Origin: Opitutales bacterium
GTDB lineage: Bacteria; Verrucomicrobiota; Verrucomicrobiia; Opitutales; Intestinicryptomonadaceae
Reading direction: 5' to 3'
NCBI GenBank assembly: GCA_021641325.1
Contig: JAJXPD010000114.1
Coordinates: 1 to 7,151, forward strand
Length of the DNA stretch: 7,151 nucleotides
Shown here: positions 439 through 7,149 of the stretch, piece by piece
How positions within the stretch are numbered: position 1 is the first letter of the stretch
How the letters are laid out: each line of letters starts with the position of its first letter
Notes under the pieces: generated by a model
The model's database searches: none
The model's input: the letters and a program-made list of their open reading frames with translations, nothing else
Told to the model about the DNA's origin: nothing
Program-made: the position numbers and the translations under genes

Positions 439-3400
439 TTATTCGGCGACGATTTCGAAGAAGGGCGAGAACTCCTTGAGCTTCGACGTGTCGATTTCTA
501 TTTTCAGCATGCCGTCCGACTCTTCGAGCGGGATTTTTTCGAGGCGTTCGCCCGTGATTTTAAGCGCGTAAAGCGAGAATTTTTTGCCCGCGCCGAAAAG
601 CGAAGCCACGTCGTCGAAGAATCCCAAGCTCGGCTTTTCGAGCGTAGCCGACACTTTGCCGACCTGCATGAGAATAGGCGTCGTGCCTTTCGAGATAAAC
701 GTCGTTTCGTCGCGCGAAACTTTGAAGTTCGTAGAGATGTTGTTGGTGTTGAAAATGAACACAATTCTCCCCGACTCCGCAAGCGGGTTGCCGTCAACCG
801 ACGACGCCGCAACCGCCGCGGGAACCGAAACCGACTTTACCGTAAGCGCGCCCACCTTCTCGTTTTTCGTGGCGGGCTTGAGCGCGACAGCCTCGGTATT
901 TGCGGTCGCAACTTTCACAAGCTCCTCTTTCACGCGCATGGTGATTTCGCCGGTGTCGCTCTGGAAGACGCCCTTTGCGGGGTCTGTCGCGTTGTCGGCG
1001 GGAAGTATGCCTGCCTCGCGCAGGCGTTTTGCGGCTTGGGAAATGTCGAACTTTTTGTCGCCCGCGCCAGTTCCCGCGACGTTCGACGCAGCCCACGACG
1101 CCGAAGAGCCAATCGGCTCGAACTGCAAGTCGGCGGGCTTCGTTTTGATTTTCGCGGCGGCGGGCGATTTGCGGGCGGTCGGGAACTCGATTCCGAAGCC
1201 CGTAAGCAGCGCGAGTTTCGACTGCTCCGTGTTCATGGCGTTGCCGACTTCGCGCGAGTTTTCAAGGTATTTGTCGTCGTAGACAATGTCCACGCGGCGG
1301 TCGGAAGTTTTGACGTCGCCCCTGAAAAACAGCACGGAGGTCAAAAATTCGTTTGCGCGGAACACGGGGCTGCCCGCCACTTCGAAAGGTCCGAGCGCGC
1401 CGCGCGATTTAAGAACCGCAACATCGTGGACTGTGAGGTTGTCGAAGCCCTGCAACGCCGAGTACGACGGGAACAGCACGCCGCCCTCGTGTTTGTAGGG
1501 ATTCCAGTGGCAGTGCTGCCATTCCGAAAGCATCATGGGCCTTCCCGCCACGCGCTTCGCGGCGGCGGCTCTGAAATATTCGCCGAAGTCGGACACAGAC
1601 GACTCAGAGCCCACTACCGAACCCTCCGACATGAACGCGCTGGGGTGTTTGTGGTAGACGTTGAGCGCGGTGTAATCGCCCGCCTCCGCGCTTAGCAGCG
1701 CAAACGATGTTGCCCTCACGCAGTTGTGCTGGTGGAGCGGAACGTTGAAGCCCTCCTCGCCGCGCACGACGCCCTCGCAGAAGCGTTGGAGGTCGCGCCC
1801 GTTTTCGATTATGAACAGGGCGATGTCGCGCTGTGAAATGCCTTCGTCGGATATTTTCACGTCGTCGAAGCTTTTGAGGTTGCGGCGGACTTTCCATTCG
1901 GGCTCGTTCCAGTTTTCGAAAGTCTTGTACTTGTTTTTGAGGAACTCCACGAACTTTGCGTTTACAAACTTCTTCACGCGCGGCGACGCGTTGCGAAGCC
2001 CGACGGGGCCAAGCTCGATTTCGTTGAAATATTCGGTGGAGACAATGGAGGGGTCGTCCTTCCACTTTTTGCCTGTGTATTTGTTGACGAGGTTAAGCTC
2101 CCACTTGACGAACTTGCGCCAGTCGGCGCGGGTCTTTTCGTCGCCGAAGAACATGAGAATTTTCACGTCGAACCTGTCGGCCCAATTGAAGTCGGGGTTG
2201 CCGAGGTCGTGGCTCGAAAGGTTGAAGTGCGAGTACACGCCCTCGCGCGCCATGGCGTAGAAGAAGTAGTCGTACATGTCCTTGTTGTACTCCCTGAGAG
2301 TGTACGGCGCGGAGAATTCCCTGTTGCCGCGCATGGAAATGCGCCAGCGGACGAGGTTGTAGCCCTGCCTGCGCATCATTTTTGCAAGCTCGTCGATGTC
2401 GGCGTGCGTCTTGATTGTCGTGCCGAAGCCGTCGCCGGGACGCCAGTTCGTGCCCTGAAACTTCACGGGAACTCCCGCGCGGTTTTCAAATTCGAAACGC
2501 CCGTTTTCGGAGACTCTCATTTTGCCGAAGCTGCCCGCGGGCGCGCTTTCAACCTGCTTGGAGAGGTCGAGAGCCGTGCCCTCCTTCACCGCCAAGTCGG
2601 AGATGTCCACGGGCTTCCACTGGCTCAAATCGTACTGTTTGGGAACGATTGTATCGAGGCTTTCGCTCGAAACCGTAATCGCGAAAACGTTGAGCTTTTC
2701 GCCGTCGATTCTTATGCTTTTGATTGCTCCGGCGTTTTCCTTAAACACGAATTTTGTGAAGTAAAGCACTCCGCCGTTCTTGCCCCCCCCGAAAACGGGA
2801 ATGCACTTGGAGTTAAATTTCGTAGTGCCGGCGGAGTCGCCGAAATCCCTGTCTTTGCGAATCCAGAAATGCTCCGACCCGCCGTTTTCGAAAGAAACGA
2901 GCATGCTTGCGCAGGCGTGGTCGGTATACTTCAAGTCGTTCGAGACCGCGCCCAAAACGTAGACGTATTTGCCGCGAATACCTTTGCCCGACAAATCGGC
3001 TTTCAGCGGCGTCGATACAGAAACAGCCGCCGCGCGGTTGACGCCCGACTTCGGGAAATCGTACTTCATTCCGCCAAGCTCTACAACTCCCTCGGGGAGG
3101 TTTTTATACGCCGAAATGCCGCCCTTCGAGCCGTCGGCCGGAATGTTTGCGCATTCGGAAATGTCGACCGTGTACGTGCCGTCCCACTTGGCGGGGACTT
3201 TCGCCTCTACCGACACCGACACCGGCACGCCTTTTTTCACACTGATTTTGGCGGGTATGCCGCGCGCGTATGTAGCCTCATGCCCGCTTTGCCCCGCAAG
3301 CTCGGCTTCGGGCTTGCCGTCGAATGCGAGGTTTCTGAACAGAGTGCGGTTTGAGAGCACCGCGCCGTTTTTGTCGCGCGCAAAATTGCTGCGCAGAAGA

Positions 3401-3672
3401 ATGTTGAGCGTTGCGTCGGAATCGGGCACAACGGTGAAGCCCATTTTACTCCATTCGGAGTCCGACACTTTTTTTGTGGCGGTTATCGTTTTCGGGGCGT
3501 CGCTGCGCCAGTTTGCGTGGCCCGCGCCCGTGCCTTTTATCTTGGCGACGACCTTTACGTCGGCGTCCGACCACGAGAAGATTTCCGCAACGTGCGATTT
3601 TACCGCGTCCGCCGCAAACAATGAAGCCGCCGCGAGTGTTGACAATAGTATTATAGGTGTTTTTCCAAACAT
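439..3672 (-). CDS. Secreted multidomain glycoside hydrolase, clan GH-A type TIM barrel
   Basis: The protein has 1077 residues starting at [10 protein letters not shown]. The frame stays open upstream to 4161, but that extension lies antisense to gpmI, and the signal peptide (hydrophobic core residues 6-20, likely cleavage near A20-A23) fixes the start at 3672. Visible layout: residues about 25-165 resemble a CBM4/9-like sandwich; 196-290 are a second beta-sandwich shared with the downstream lipoprotein; about 340-400 are a connector of the 'W-PVD-S' and 'ALDLS' type; about 400-790 are a TIM barrel opening with [10 protein letters not shown]; about 890-1077 are C-terminal beta structure containing SDTGEI. 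The proposed acid/base is Glu551 in YFNEIE, and the proposed nucleophile is Glu717 in MMLSEW. These are strand-4 and strand-7 positions about 165 residues apart, as expected for retaining clan GH-A enzymes. Substrate and CAZy family cannot be assigned by eye. The protein is probably periplasmic or extracellular and acts on polysaccharide. No C-terminal sorting signal is seen. Confidence 0.88.
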
Positions 3673-3829: not shown

Positions 3830-5404
3830 ATGAACGGAGTAAAAAGACCTGTAATATTAGTAATCAGGGACGGTTGGGGCGAAAACCACGACTCCTCCCT
3901 CGACAAATACAATGCGGTAAAACTGGCGGACGCGCCGTTTTGCAAAATGCTCTCGAAAAAATGGCCGCGCACCGAAATTTCGGCTTGCGGGCTTGAAGTC
4001 GGTCTCCCCGAAGGAATCATGGGCAACAGCGAAGTCGGACACCAGAATATCGGCGCGGGCAGAATCGTTGACCAGGAAATCGTAAGAATCGACAAGGGCT
4101 TCCAGACTGGCTCGGTGCTCGAAAGCCCCGTACTCAACGAAGTCTTCAAGAAGCTCGACAACGGCGGCGCGCTCCACCTCTTCGGGCTTTGCTCAGACGC
4201 CGGCGTGCACTCGATGCTCCGCCACCTCTACGCGCTCCTGAAAATCTGCGCCGACAAAAAGTACGACAAGGTTTTCCTCCACGCTTTCACCGACGGACGC
4301 GACACCCCGCCCACGAGCGGACTCGGATTTATCCGCGAAGTCGAAGGCAAGATGAAGGAATACGGCGTCGGACAGGTTGCGTCGGTAATCGGCAGATTCT
4401 GGGCGATGGACAGAGACAAACGCTGGGACAGAGTCGAAAAAGCCTACGACTGCCTCGTCGGAACAAAGGCCGAAGCCGCGGTCTCCAACGCCGAAGACGC
4501 GTTCAAAAACTACTACGAAAAACCCGCCGCCGACAACATGCAGGGCGACGAATTCATCGTCCCCACTTGGATTGAAAAGGACGGGAAGCCCATCGGCAGA
4601 ATCGCCGATGGCGACGCCGTCATATTCTTCAACTTCCGCGGCGACCGCCCGCGCGAGCTTACAAGCGCGTTCATCGACAAAGGCTTCGACGGCTTCGACC
4701 GCTCGAAAACACCGCAGGTCTTCTTTGTTACAATGACCGAATACAAGGTCGGCCTCTGCCCCAACGTGCTCTTCCCCAAGCCGCCCAAAATGGTCAACAT
4801 TCTCGGCGACTACGTTTCCTCGAAGGGTCTGGCACAGCTGCGCTGCGCCGAAACCGAAAAGTTCGCGCATGTAACGTTCTTCTTCAACGACTACCGCGAA
4901 GAACCTTTCAAGGGCGAAGACCGCATTCTCATCGACTCGCCCCGCGACGTGCAGACTTACGACCAAAAGCCCGAAATGAGCGCGCCCGCAGTAGCCGACG
5001 CGGTCGTCAAGGCGATTCGCGAAAATAAATACGCGCTTATCGTCGTAAACTTCGCAAACGGCGACATGGTCGGGCACACCGGCAACCTCAAAGCCGCCGT
5101 CAAAGCGGTCGAAACCGTCGACAAATGCGTGGAAAAAATCGCGCGCGCGGCCGACGAATTCGGAGCGGCTCTCGTCGTCACAGCCGACCACGGCAACAGC
5201 GACCAACTCTTCGAACCCGCCATCAACGAAGCGCATACCCGCCACACGATGAACCCAGTGGAAGTTGTAATCTACGGCAAGGGTCTCGAAGGCCTGCTCA
5301 TGCGCAAAAGCGGCACGCTCGGCGACATCGCCCCGACCGTACTCCAACTCATGGGTCTCAAAAAGCCCGAAGAAATGACAGGTCAGTCCCTCATCGCAGG
5401 CTAG
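3830..5404 (+). CDS. gpmI: 2,3-bisphosphoglycerate-independent phosphoglycerate mutase
   Basis: The product is 524 residues, close to the usual 510 or so for the family. It interconverts 3- and 2-phosphoglycerate in the cytoplasm (glycolysis/gluconeogenesis) using two Mn ions and a phosphoserine intermediate. Family signatures are intact: DGWG (metal Asp14), GNSEVGH with nucleophile Ser67, SDAGVHS (His127), TDGRD (Arg157, Asp158), [19 protein letters not shown] (Arg189, Arg195), FFNFRGDR (Arg270, Arg273), Lys344 in the [13 protein letters not shown] segment, Asp412/His416 in GDMVGHTG, Asp453/His454 in TADHGN, and His472 near HTMNP. The start at 3830 puts the DGWG motif at residue 14, as expected. 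The open frame upstream is antisense to the glycosidase and is not believed to be coding. There is no Shine-Dalgarno motif. The gene is divergent from the glycosidase and convergent with gpsA, so it is probably monocistronic. The function call is very secure. Confidence 0.97.
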
Positions 5405-5444
5405 CAGCCTGCACGGGGCGCGAGGCAGGCTGCAGCCTGCACGG
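5404..5444. repeat. 13-nt direct repeat and 16-bp palindrome at the gpmI stop
   Basis: The sequence GCAGCCTGCACGG occurs at 5404-5416, starting on the last base of the gpmI stop codon, and again at 5432-5444. Between them, and overlapping the second copy, is the perfect 16-bp palindrome GCAGGCTGCAGCCTGC (5425-5440). It could form a hairpin or cruciform or be the core of a dispersed repeat. There is no T-run after it, so it is not a canonical terminator. Confidence 0.8.
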
Positions 5445-5566
5445 CGACAGAGGGGGCTGCCGCCCCCAAAAGGCGGTTTTCGCTACCACGAAAACTCCCG
5501 CCTGTCCCCTCGCTCAAACGCAAGGTGCGCCTCCCTACGGAGCTTCGCTCCTTTCTGTGATTATGC

Positions 5567-5691: not shown

Positions 5692-5730
5692 AAAAGCGGA
5701 AATTCCAAGTTTCGGAATTTCCGCTTTTTT
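5692..5730. terminator. Strong bidirectional terminator between the convergent genes
   Basis: A perfect 15-bp inverted repeat, AAAAGCGGAAATTCC (5692-5706) and GGAATTTCCGCTTTT (5714-5728), has a 7-nt loop. The plus strand has six T after the GC-containing stem. The minus strand reads CCGCTTTTGATTTTAT. It can therefore stop gpmI read-through on the plus strand and the gpsA/repeat transcript on the minus strand. Confidence 0.85.
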
Positions 5731-5737
5731 GTAAACT

Positions 5738-5933
5738 CAACTTTTATCCCAGCGCACTCTAAAAATCTTCGTGCGCCAGCACTCTAATTTTAGGGGCGTC
5801 AAAATGCCAGTATAAGGGCGGCTTTGCGCGCGGCACAGGGCGCGTGGCGTACTTCCGTACGCGAGCGGTCTGGGGCGTGCGCGAAACGCCCTTAGACTGG
5901 TGCTTTCACGCCACGTGTGCGTGGCGTACGCGG
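5738..5933 (-). repeat. Structured repeat unit A
   Basis: This is an imperfect direct repeat of unit B, with an offset of 234-235 nt. Both begin with CAACTTTTATCCC on the plus strand. The long arm pairs CCAGT (5807-5811) with ACTGG (5896-5900), TAAGGGCG (5813-5820) with CGCCCTTA (5887-5894), TTT with AAA, and CGCGC (5827-5831) with GCGCG (5879-5883). The apical stem is GCGTAC/GTACGC (5847-5862) with a 4-nt loop that reads GGAA on the minus strand. A short second hairpin pairs GTGC (5771-5774) with GCAC (5779-5782), flanked by CTAAAAAT and ATTTTAG. An extra 8-bp hairpin at 5908-5927 (ACGCCACG, loop TGTG, CGTGGCGT) follows the long arm and overlaps the partial copy. Confidence 0.88.
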
Positions 5934-5970
5934 CTATCCGCAAACATTAGTCGGCTCGCGAAACGCCCTA
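5919..5970 (-). repeat. Degenerate partial third repeat unit
   Basis: The segment GTGGCGTACGCGG at the left and CTCGCGAAACGCCCTA at the right match, in the same order and orientation, the apical and right-arm parts of unit A (5844-5893). The TTCCGTAC portion of the apical hairpin is missing, as expected for deletion between the two GTAC copies. The middle (CTATCCGCAAACATTAG) has diverged. The segment lies between units A and B. Confidence 0.5.
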
Positions 5971-5972
5971 CC

Positions 5973-6159
5973 CAACTTTTATCCCAAAGCACTCTAAAAA
6001 TCTTCGCGCCGTGCGCTGTATTTTTAGGCGCGTCAAAGTGCTTTCATAAGGGTGGCTTTCCTGTGCGAACAGGGCGCGTGGCGTACTTTCGTACGCGAGC
6101 GGTCTGGGCGTACAGGGAAACGCCCTTAGGAAAGTGCTTTCACGCGCCGTACGCGCCGT
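5973..6159 (-). repeat. Structured repeat unit B, abutting the gpsA stop codon
   Basis: This unit is a direct repeat of unit A. The long arm pairs CTTTC (6041-6045) with GAAAG (6130-6134), TAAGGGTG (6047-6054) with CGCCCTTA (6121-6128), TTT with AAA, and CCTGT (6060-6064) with ACAGG (6112-6116). The apical GCGTAC/GTACGC stem (6081-6096) has a loop reading GAAA on the minus strand. The second hairpin is GCGC, loop CGT, GCGC (6006-6016) enclosed by a perfect CTAAAAAT/ATTTTTAG stem (5994-6001 with 6020-6027). The right end is a tandem 9-mer ACGCGCCGT (6142-6150 and 6151-6159), directly next to the gpsA stop at 6160-6162. Confidence 0.88.
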
Positions 6160-7149
6160 CTAAGACAACATGCGGGAGAGACACTCCTCGCGGGTTAGCT
6201 TGCCCTCGGAGAGGTCGCACAACGCCGTCATAATCGGCAGCTTCACGTGGTAGAGTTTGTCGAACATTCTGCAAATCTGGATTGTCTCCAAGCCCGCGCA
6301 AACCCTGCCGTTGAGCTTTGCCTTCGCCGCCTCCGCGTCAAGCCCGCGCCCAAGCTGTTCGCCCGTTCTGCGGTTGCGCGAATCGGGGCTCATGCAGGTC
6401 GTCAAAACGTCGCCCAAAATGGCGGATTCTTTTACAAAAGAGTCGCTCCATGCGCCGAGGGACGCCGCCGCCCTGTAAATTTCCTGAAAGCCGCGCGCCA
6501 TGACAATCGCCTTTGTGTTTGCGCCAAGCTCCATGCCGTCGCAGAAGCCCGCCGCGAGCGCGACTATGTTTTTGAGAGCCGCCCCGATTTCGACGCCCAC
6601 GACGTCGTCGGTAGGGCGCACGCGGAAGTTCGGCGTGCAGAAAGCCCCGGAGGCGCGGACCGAATCGGCGTGCGAGTCGAGCGCGATTACAGCCTCCGCG
6701 TATTTGTCGAGGGCAACTTCGAAGGCGATGTTCGGACCCATTATCGAGCCGCAGGACGACGCCTGCGGAATCGACTCGCGCAGAATCGCCGACGGCCTGC
6801 GCCACGTTCCGATTTCGATGCCTTTGCCCGCATTGAGCATGATTGAGCCGTTCGGAATGTATTTTGCGAAATCGCGCGCGGTCGAGGCAAGGTACTGAAT
6901 GGGCATTACCCACACGACCATTTCCGCGCCGTCGAGCACTTTCGCGGGGTCGTTGGAAAATTCGACGTTTTCGGGAATTTTGATGTCGGGCAAAAAGAGC
7001 GAGTTTTCGCGCTTTGCCGCCACCGATTCCGCGACCTCTTTTTCGCGCGCCCAAACGGAGACGTTCGGGACGTTTTTCGAAAGGATAATCGAGAGCGCGC
7101 TGCCCCATGCGCCCGCGCCCACCACTGCTACTTTTTTGAATTGTACCAT
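6160..7149 (-). CDS. gpsA: Glycerol-3-phosphate dehydrogenase [NAD(P)+]
   Basis: The protein is complete at 329 residues, typical for the family. It reduces dihydroxyacetone phosphate to sn-glycerol 3-phosphate in the cytoplasm, supplying the backbone for phospholipid synthesis. The N-terminal Rossmann motif GAGAWGSAL (residues 11-19) sits right after a short first strand, which supports the ATG at 7149. Other signatures are GKGIE (108-112), GPNIAFEVA (138-146, where many homologues have GPSFA-E), the catalytic Lys193 in EIGAALKNIVALAAG, the 209-224 region with NTKAIVMARGFQEI, and SRNRRTGEQLGRG (257-269) for nucleotide and substrate contacts. The gene stops with TAG, and the structured repeat array begins at the next base. 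It is convergent with gpmI. Only 2 nt of upstream sequence are visible, so promoter, ribosome site and operon partners cannot be judged. The function call is secure. Confidence 0.96.
   Translation of the reverse strand: MVQFKKVAVVGAGAWGSALSIILSKNVPNVSVWAREKEVAESVAAKRENSLFLPDIKIPENVEFSNDPAKVLDGAEMVVWVMPIQYLASTARDFAKYIPNGSIMLNAGKGIEIGTWRRPSAILRESIPQASSCGSIMGPNIAFEVALDKYAEAVIALDSHADSVRASGAFCTPNFRVRPTDDVVGVEIGAALKNIVALAAGFCDGMELGANTKAIVMARGFQEIYRAAASLGAWSDSFVKESAILGDVLTTCMSPDSRNRRTGEQLGRGLDAEAAKAKLNGRVCAGLETIQICRMFDKLYHVKLPIMTALCDLSEGKLTREECLSRMLS

Follow-up and report, generated by a model that had tools for sequence, protein, structure and literature searches.

Dispersed imperfect hairpins at gene 3' ends in relatives of an Opitutales bacterium: candidate non-autonomous mobile elements recognised as folded single strands

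The 3' end of gpsA in the window (the whole stretch of DNA analysed, 7,151 nt) bears two long imperfect hairpins, and these belong to a family of hairpins dispersed at the 3' ends of genes. Our preferred reading, to which we give a probability of roughly 0.48, is that they are non-autonomous mobile elements recognised as a single-stranded hairpin. If this is right, the family is a dispersed repeat addressed to stop codons, with one orientation preferred and with shape conserved rather than sequence; one genome could mark at least 100 genes with the same hairpin just after their stop codons, and either a novel mechanism of DNA movement or a novel type of 3'-end signal would follow. The initial annotation of this DNA had proposed a selected fold, a possibly genome-wide and lineage-specific distribution and the lack of a described RNA family. 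These parts of its interpretation stand, and the address at gene 3' ends with a preferred orientation was unforeseen. That position and orientation point away from a free-standing RNA and toward an element that is mobile or marks a gene border.

Copy A (5790..5915, + strand) and copy B (6024..6149, + strand), both located as covariance-model matches, lie between the convergent genes gpmI (3830..5404, + strand; cofactor-independent phosphoglycerate mutase, Pfam PF06415 and PF01676) and gpsA (6160..7149, - strand; NAD-dependent glycerol-3-phosphate dehydrogenase, PF01210 and PF07479). The folded strand is antisense to gpsA. Copy B ends 10 nt short of the gpsA stop codon at its 3' end, and copy A follows on the far side of copy B as seen from gpsA. 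As direct repeats, the two copies match over 143 nt (77% identity) and over a further 40 nt (90% identity), at a measured spacing of 234-235 nt, close to the 235 nt given in the initial annotation. The 40-nt repeat is the leader of each unit, at 5735..5774 in unit A and at 5970..6009 before copy B (both + strand). A small hairpin stands 5' of copy A (5758..5794, + strand; recognised from sequence and fold, with CTAAAAA and TTTTAG flanks), and copies in the relative G001 are preceded by a module resembling it. Its counterpart 5' of copy B (5994..6029, + strand), recognised from sequence, is paired otherwise in the predicted minimum-energy fold of a longer stretch (5973-6170). The pairings described in the initial annotation can be read directly from the DNA. 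The base of the long arm is CCAGT/ACTGG in copy A and CTTTC/GAAAG in copy B, the upper arm is CGCGC/GCGCG and CCTGT/ACAGG, and the small hairpin is GTGC/GCAC and GCGC/GCGC, respectively. Both copies contain TAAGGGYG/CGCCCTTA and the same A/G mismatch, and their apical 40 nt (5835-5874 and 6069-6108) differ at one base. The spacer between the units (5916..5969, + strand) contains a GCGAAACGCCCTA fragment resembling the 3' arm. Beyond the elements, an inverted repeat with A-/T-rich ends (5692..5728; 15-nt arms, 100% complementary) is, from its sequence, likely a terminator in the gpsA sense, and a terminator-like site was found behind copy A in the gene sense. Elsewhere in the window, GCAGCCTGCACGG occurs twice directly 3' of gpmI (5404-5453) within a repeat-rich intergenic region, and a 1077-residue open frame (442-3672, - strand) had no Pfam match at E<=1e-3.

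Folding and covariation both support selection on the fold, as the initial annotation had held. Copy A (5738-5925, + strand) folded with z -6.5 and copy B (5973-6170, + strand) with z -7.3, and in each case 0/200 shuffles were as stable; the - strand of copy A gave z -4.1. Covariation was analysed in 24 diverse copies, drawn from the window and 7 other genomes. Of 743 cells in this alignment 93.8% pair, compared with 66.9% in shuffles, and 27/31 pairs have changed on both sides. The covariation score was 0.730; shuffles, a control that ignores the relatedness of the copies, gave 0.223 (0/500 as high), and sliding the partners by 1-3 columns, a control that preserves relatedness, gave at most 0.155 and also bears on the advantage that the structure gains from having been derived, with the alignment, from one set of sequences. 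Further copies were searched for stem changes that do not compensate, and they compensate instead.

The 1.3-Mb genome G033 provided 78 copies for comparison. Their nine outermost pairs are standard in 670/687 cells, and all four Watson-Crick pairs were seen at 8/9 of these positions. The outer arms have 65% mean identity, 70/78 5' arms being distinct, and the inner part is 89% identical. A GC bulge is kept (first base in 77/78, second base in 77/78), as are a G.A mismatch (78/78) and an A.G mismatch (74/78). A C.C mismatch was present in 8/8 sequences of the first alignment and in 38/78 copies from G033, the remaining ones having other combinations. Natural variation in the family offers abundant material for studying selection on structure alone. 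Compensation without selection would be expected if template switching at inverted repeats copied one arm onto the other. Such quasi-palindrome correction is a known mutational process that would act on long hairpin DNA, and in these copies the two partners of a pair have often changed jointly. However, it should erase the bulge and the mismatches, yet these are kept in 74-78 of the 78 copies, and G-U wobble intermediates are present, with 22 such cells among the nine outermost pairs. Address and orientation are left unexplained as well, and we consider this route very improbable.

One strand of the element folds better than the other. The model strand, which is that of the initial annotation, was more stable than its complement in 25/26 copies, and in 97/98, 28/28 and 17/18 copies from G033, G036 and G026, although part of this bias is built in because strands were assigned by model score. 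The mean folding energy in G033 was -67.2 kcal/mol for the model strand and -56.4 kcal/mol for the complement. Outside four mostly fixed G-U columns, the G033 copies have 55 G-U cells and 27 A-C cells, and 17 columns lean toward G-U and 8 toward A-C, with cells that are not independent of each other. Our inference is that the element acts through the strand antisense to the adjoining gene.

Relatives were located through a gpmI protein search. The closest gpmI was 94% identical (L001, in G001, labelled uncultured Verrucomicrobiota bacterium), and several of the next were labelled Opitutales. No element lies beside gpmI in G001, and five copies elsewhere in that genome have 77-79% identity to copy A. 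A first covariance model, built from 8 copies, detected the family in 8/88 relatives of G001 (G001, G009, G012, G017, G019, G021, G026 and G033). A second, built from 24 diverse copies, detected it in 4/34 relatives of G033 and picked up G036, which the first had missed. Carriers number 9 relatives in total, with elements of roughly 105 to 132 nt, model matches of about 102-132 nt and from 1 to at least 126 matches per genome. The highest number, at least 126 with the second model, came from G033, in which 150/683 candidates were scored. In a class-wide draw 4/384 genomes matched with 9 candidates scored per genome; a weak match in G059 (E 8.6e-4) from this draw was left out of the carrier count. 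The family is therefore spread through genomes and restricted to a lineage, as had been suspected from the two window copies. An Rfam search of the window gave no match at E<=1, and across 8 further loci its only matches, two weak ones, fell beyond the element boundaries and scored under the gathering threshold. Literature searches listed no account of these hairpin repeats. Among viral contigs, one sequence-pattern match was obtained, without a covariance-model match, and two further patterns matched nothing; one G012 copy searched against plasmids and one G033 copy searched against phages gave no match.

Several loci have a modular structure. In G012, L196 joins a different inner hairpin to outer arms belonging to one subfamily, and the inner stem of L185 is that usually seen in the other subfamily; both look like module swaps. 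The upstream flanks of L186-L197 in the same genome share two further modules behind the elements, one with a ACGAACCTC hairpin that is terminator-like in look and the other with GGGCTATCCCC. Tandem partial units stand upstream of full copies at L082, L098 and L104 in G001; they keep the leader and the 5' arm to the apex and then continue as other sequence. A second hairpin class, more diverged than the first, is present at L162, L163, L170, L271, L280 and L283 in G033. It often stands inverted at a distance of 24-60 nt behind the first class, and the two in this arrangement form dimers resembling REP pairs.

The position of the elements relative to genes was measured as the stop of a frame of at least 80 codons on the opposite strand, relative to the element ends. 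We used 188 copies hand-listed from the model matches, a count that leaves out duplicates on the antisense strand, copy L142 at a contig end and any match that was weak or partial, holds at least one duplicate (L119 and L335 are one place in G026) and includes some rows of the second G033 class, which are less tied to stop codons. A stop lay within 5 nt of the element 3' end in 71/188 copies and within 5 nt of the 5' end in 5/188, and the same was true of 209/9400 random positions (2.2%) drawn from these loci. Between -40 and +45 there were 126 copies at the 3' end and 24 at the other end (n=188), with 1676/9400 random positions. The 3'-end association was seen in 71/98 copies in G033, 11/18 in G026 and 7/28 in G036, where 3/28 had it at the 5' end. 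Taken by genome, it is strong in G033, in G012 and for most copies of G001, and weak in G036. In a first set of 66 copies, the right-hand frame was on the opposite strand in 59; the left-hand frame was on the same strand in 26 and on the opposite strand in 37, and none was seen in 3. The element follows the TAA of the AdoHcyase gene directly in G001, and in some copies the reading frame terminates inside the element. A dedicated neighbour gene was rejected as an explanation after a Pfam scan of 20 of the 126 neighbour proteins: 19 belong to ordinary kinds of family, one of them being a Xer-like recombinase, and the remaining protein had no Pfam family.

The copies appear to have moved to their present places. 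Sixteen genomes were searched for gpsA orthologues, of which 13 matched, and after one fragment was left out 12 could be read at the 3' end; the element was present in 0/12. In G001, the genes for an AraC-type regulator, a Na/H exchanger and LptF/G are each followed by a copy, and these copies share 98-99% identity. Two G012 copies are identical to each other, and the genes behind 17 G012 copies showed no mutual BLASTP match at 1e-8. Near-identical copies behind unrelated genes indicate that the copies have dispersed. In G033, the median nearest-neighbour identity between copies is 91%, which suggests that these copies are older or more varied. Conserved placement was considered and rejected. 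Cross-genome BLASTP among the 126 neighbour proteins gave 4 pairs, which we take, on reading their sequences, to include FtsK and ribosomal L19, and all four were regarded as probable independent insertions. Flanking sequence was taken for a portion of the G033, G036, G026 and G012 matches. In a comparison of 120 rows, flanks sharing words of at least 5 nt were found in 25/120, compared with 13/120 when swapped, some copies being counted twice.

Searches for an enzyme that might move the elements covered four families (Y1_Tnp, DDE_Tnp_1, reverse transcriptase and tyrosine recombinase) in draft genomes. Y1_Tnp was found in 2/22 of them (G026 and G034) and was absent from 8/9 carriers, and no element lies within the 3.3-kb locus of the G026 gene. 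DDE_Tnp_1 was found in 1/24, the non-carrier G045, and in none of the 9 carriers. The copy-rich draft genomes G001, G012, G033 and G036 yielded no Y1, DDE_Tnp_1 or reverse transcriptase. Tyrosine recombinases occur in all 24 genomes, and G033 has a single one at E<=1e-10; this sole gene is itself followed by an element directly after its own stop codon (L168). Retroposition, by a route like that of SINEs, is another explanation: a nick close to the stop codon would be the site at which a transcript of the folded strand undergoes reverse transcription. The preference for one folded strand is in keeping with it, and so is the sharp gene-side end, since similarity between copies stops within a few nt on that side in most subfamilies (in one G001 subfamily, less tight to stops, it continues 15-31 nt past the 3' end). 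However, the non-gene end is sharp too in G033, where many copy comparisons also stop near 0 on that side, and reverse transcriptase (RVT_1, PF00078) was found in 1/24 draft genomes, G021 being the only one of the 9 carriers searched to have it. This is the least probable of the explanations considered here.

The location of the hairpins is also compatible with a cis-acting RNA element. A gene-sense hairpin would shield the 3' end of the mRNA from exonucleases and copies would be kept by selection, or, on the other strand, the hairpin would keep antisense transcription from entering the gene. Elements directly after stop codons and the strong folding of both strands in G033 fit this explanation. 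It is the main rival to the mobile-element reading and, although less probable, is supported mainly by the copy-specific arms that remain paired. Separate terminator-like sites within 200 nt in the gene sense were found at 8/17 copies in G012 (0.1 expected from shuffles), 1/2 in the window, 3/15 in G001 (0.7 expected), 4/28 in G036 (0.5), 2/18 in G026 (0.5) and 4/10 in the others (0.2), and at 6/98 in G033 (2.2 expected from shuffles). A hairpin-plus-T-tract terminator was present at 2/65 G033 gene ends with an element and 1/45 without (3/110 together; L161-L180 and L257-L296). Terminator-like sites are thus rare at G033 gene ends, and another 3'-end device would be useful there. However, the gene-sense form of the explanation predicts wobble pairs on the gene-sense strand, and the G-U pairs lie on the other. 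The antisense form depends on transcription arriving from the left side, where the neighbouring gene is so oriented in only 26/66 copies. A plain barrier requires no fixed orientation, and the spread of the copies is left unexplained by a cis-acting RNA alone.

For the reading as mobile elements, the following steps may be proposed. The folded strand, antisense to the gene, would be the strand that matters, and an enzyme would read the imperfect hairpin as single-stranded DNA. Insertion would be aimed at the stop codon or at the end of translation or transcription, and the inserted copy would become the start of the 3' untranslated region of the gene. The copy-specific arms that stay paired (70/78 distinct in G033) count against this reading, as they also fit upkeep in place. 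Further points against it are that no enzyme was found, that there is no clear target duplication and that the address is weak in G036. More tentatively, the family might represent a new class of mobile element, in which an enzyme would move a folded single-stranded hairpin and not a sequence, and the target would be the end of a reading frame.

Some features of the family resemble those of known dispersed repeats. REP repeats are dispersed palindromes located mostly downstream of genes, sometimes as inverted pairs, that may act as RNA; their units are 20-40 bp long and tagged GTAG or CGTC, and GTAG repeats occur in O. terrae (PMC3733652). O. terrae is a phylum-level relative, and the present hairpins lack its GTAG tag. 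The family could be a known class of repeat, either REP/REPIN mobilised by a RAYT or the MITE of a DDE transposon. As in REP, BIME and REPIN sequences, the copies are dispersed, palindromic and downstream of genes, and G033 has occasional inverted dimers like those of REPs (PMC3733652). Unlike these repeats, they carry a tag near an end in few of 188 copies (GTAG in 6, CGTC in 24), and their units of about 102-132 nt, much longer than 20-40 bp, have a fixed set of mismatches and one preferred orientation to the gene. No RAYT (Y1) flanked by these hairpins was found in the draft genomes. The REP/REPIN identity failed on the tags and on the RAYT, which is missing from 8/9 carriers. Like MITEs, the elements are short, non-autonomous, dispersed inverted repeats adjoining genes, but their fold covaries over the whole length with kept mismatches, and they have a strand asymmetry and a stop-codon address. 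They also show no clear target duplication, and DDE_Tnp_1, the DDE family searched, was found in none of the 9 draft carrier genomes. Neither Y1_Tnp nor DDE_Tnp_1 was found in G001, G012, G033 and G036, and membership in a known repeat class appears improbable.

Like intrinsic terminators, the hairpin stands behind a stop codon. Unlike them, the G033 elements lack a U-tract, their gene-sense end having about three T and then mixed bases, and separate terminators follow in 8/17 G012 copies. The attC sites of integrons are imperfect hairpins after a gene stop, with the folded strand antisense and the shape kept above the sequence, and their core boxes have the motifs RYYYAAC and GTTRRRY. These boxes were found in 0/188 copies, and identity with attC was rejected for this reason. 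An integron would also call for an IntI-type integrase; tyrosine recombinases, taken without regard to subtype, occur in all 24 genomes. The elements are also dispersed behind core genes, whereas attC sites are arrayed in cassettes. Even so, like attC, the present hairpin lies behind the stop codon, its folded strand is antisense to the gene, and its shape is conserved over its sequence.
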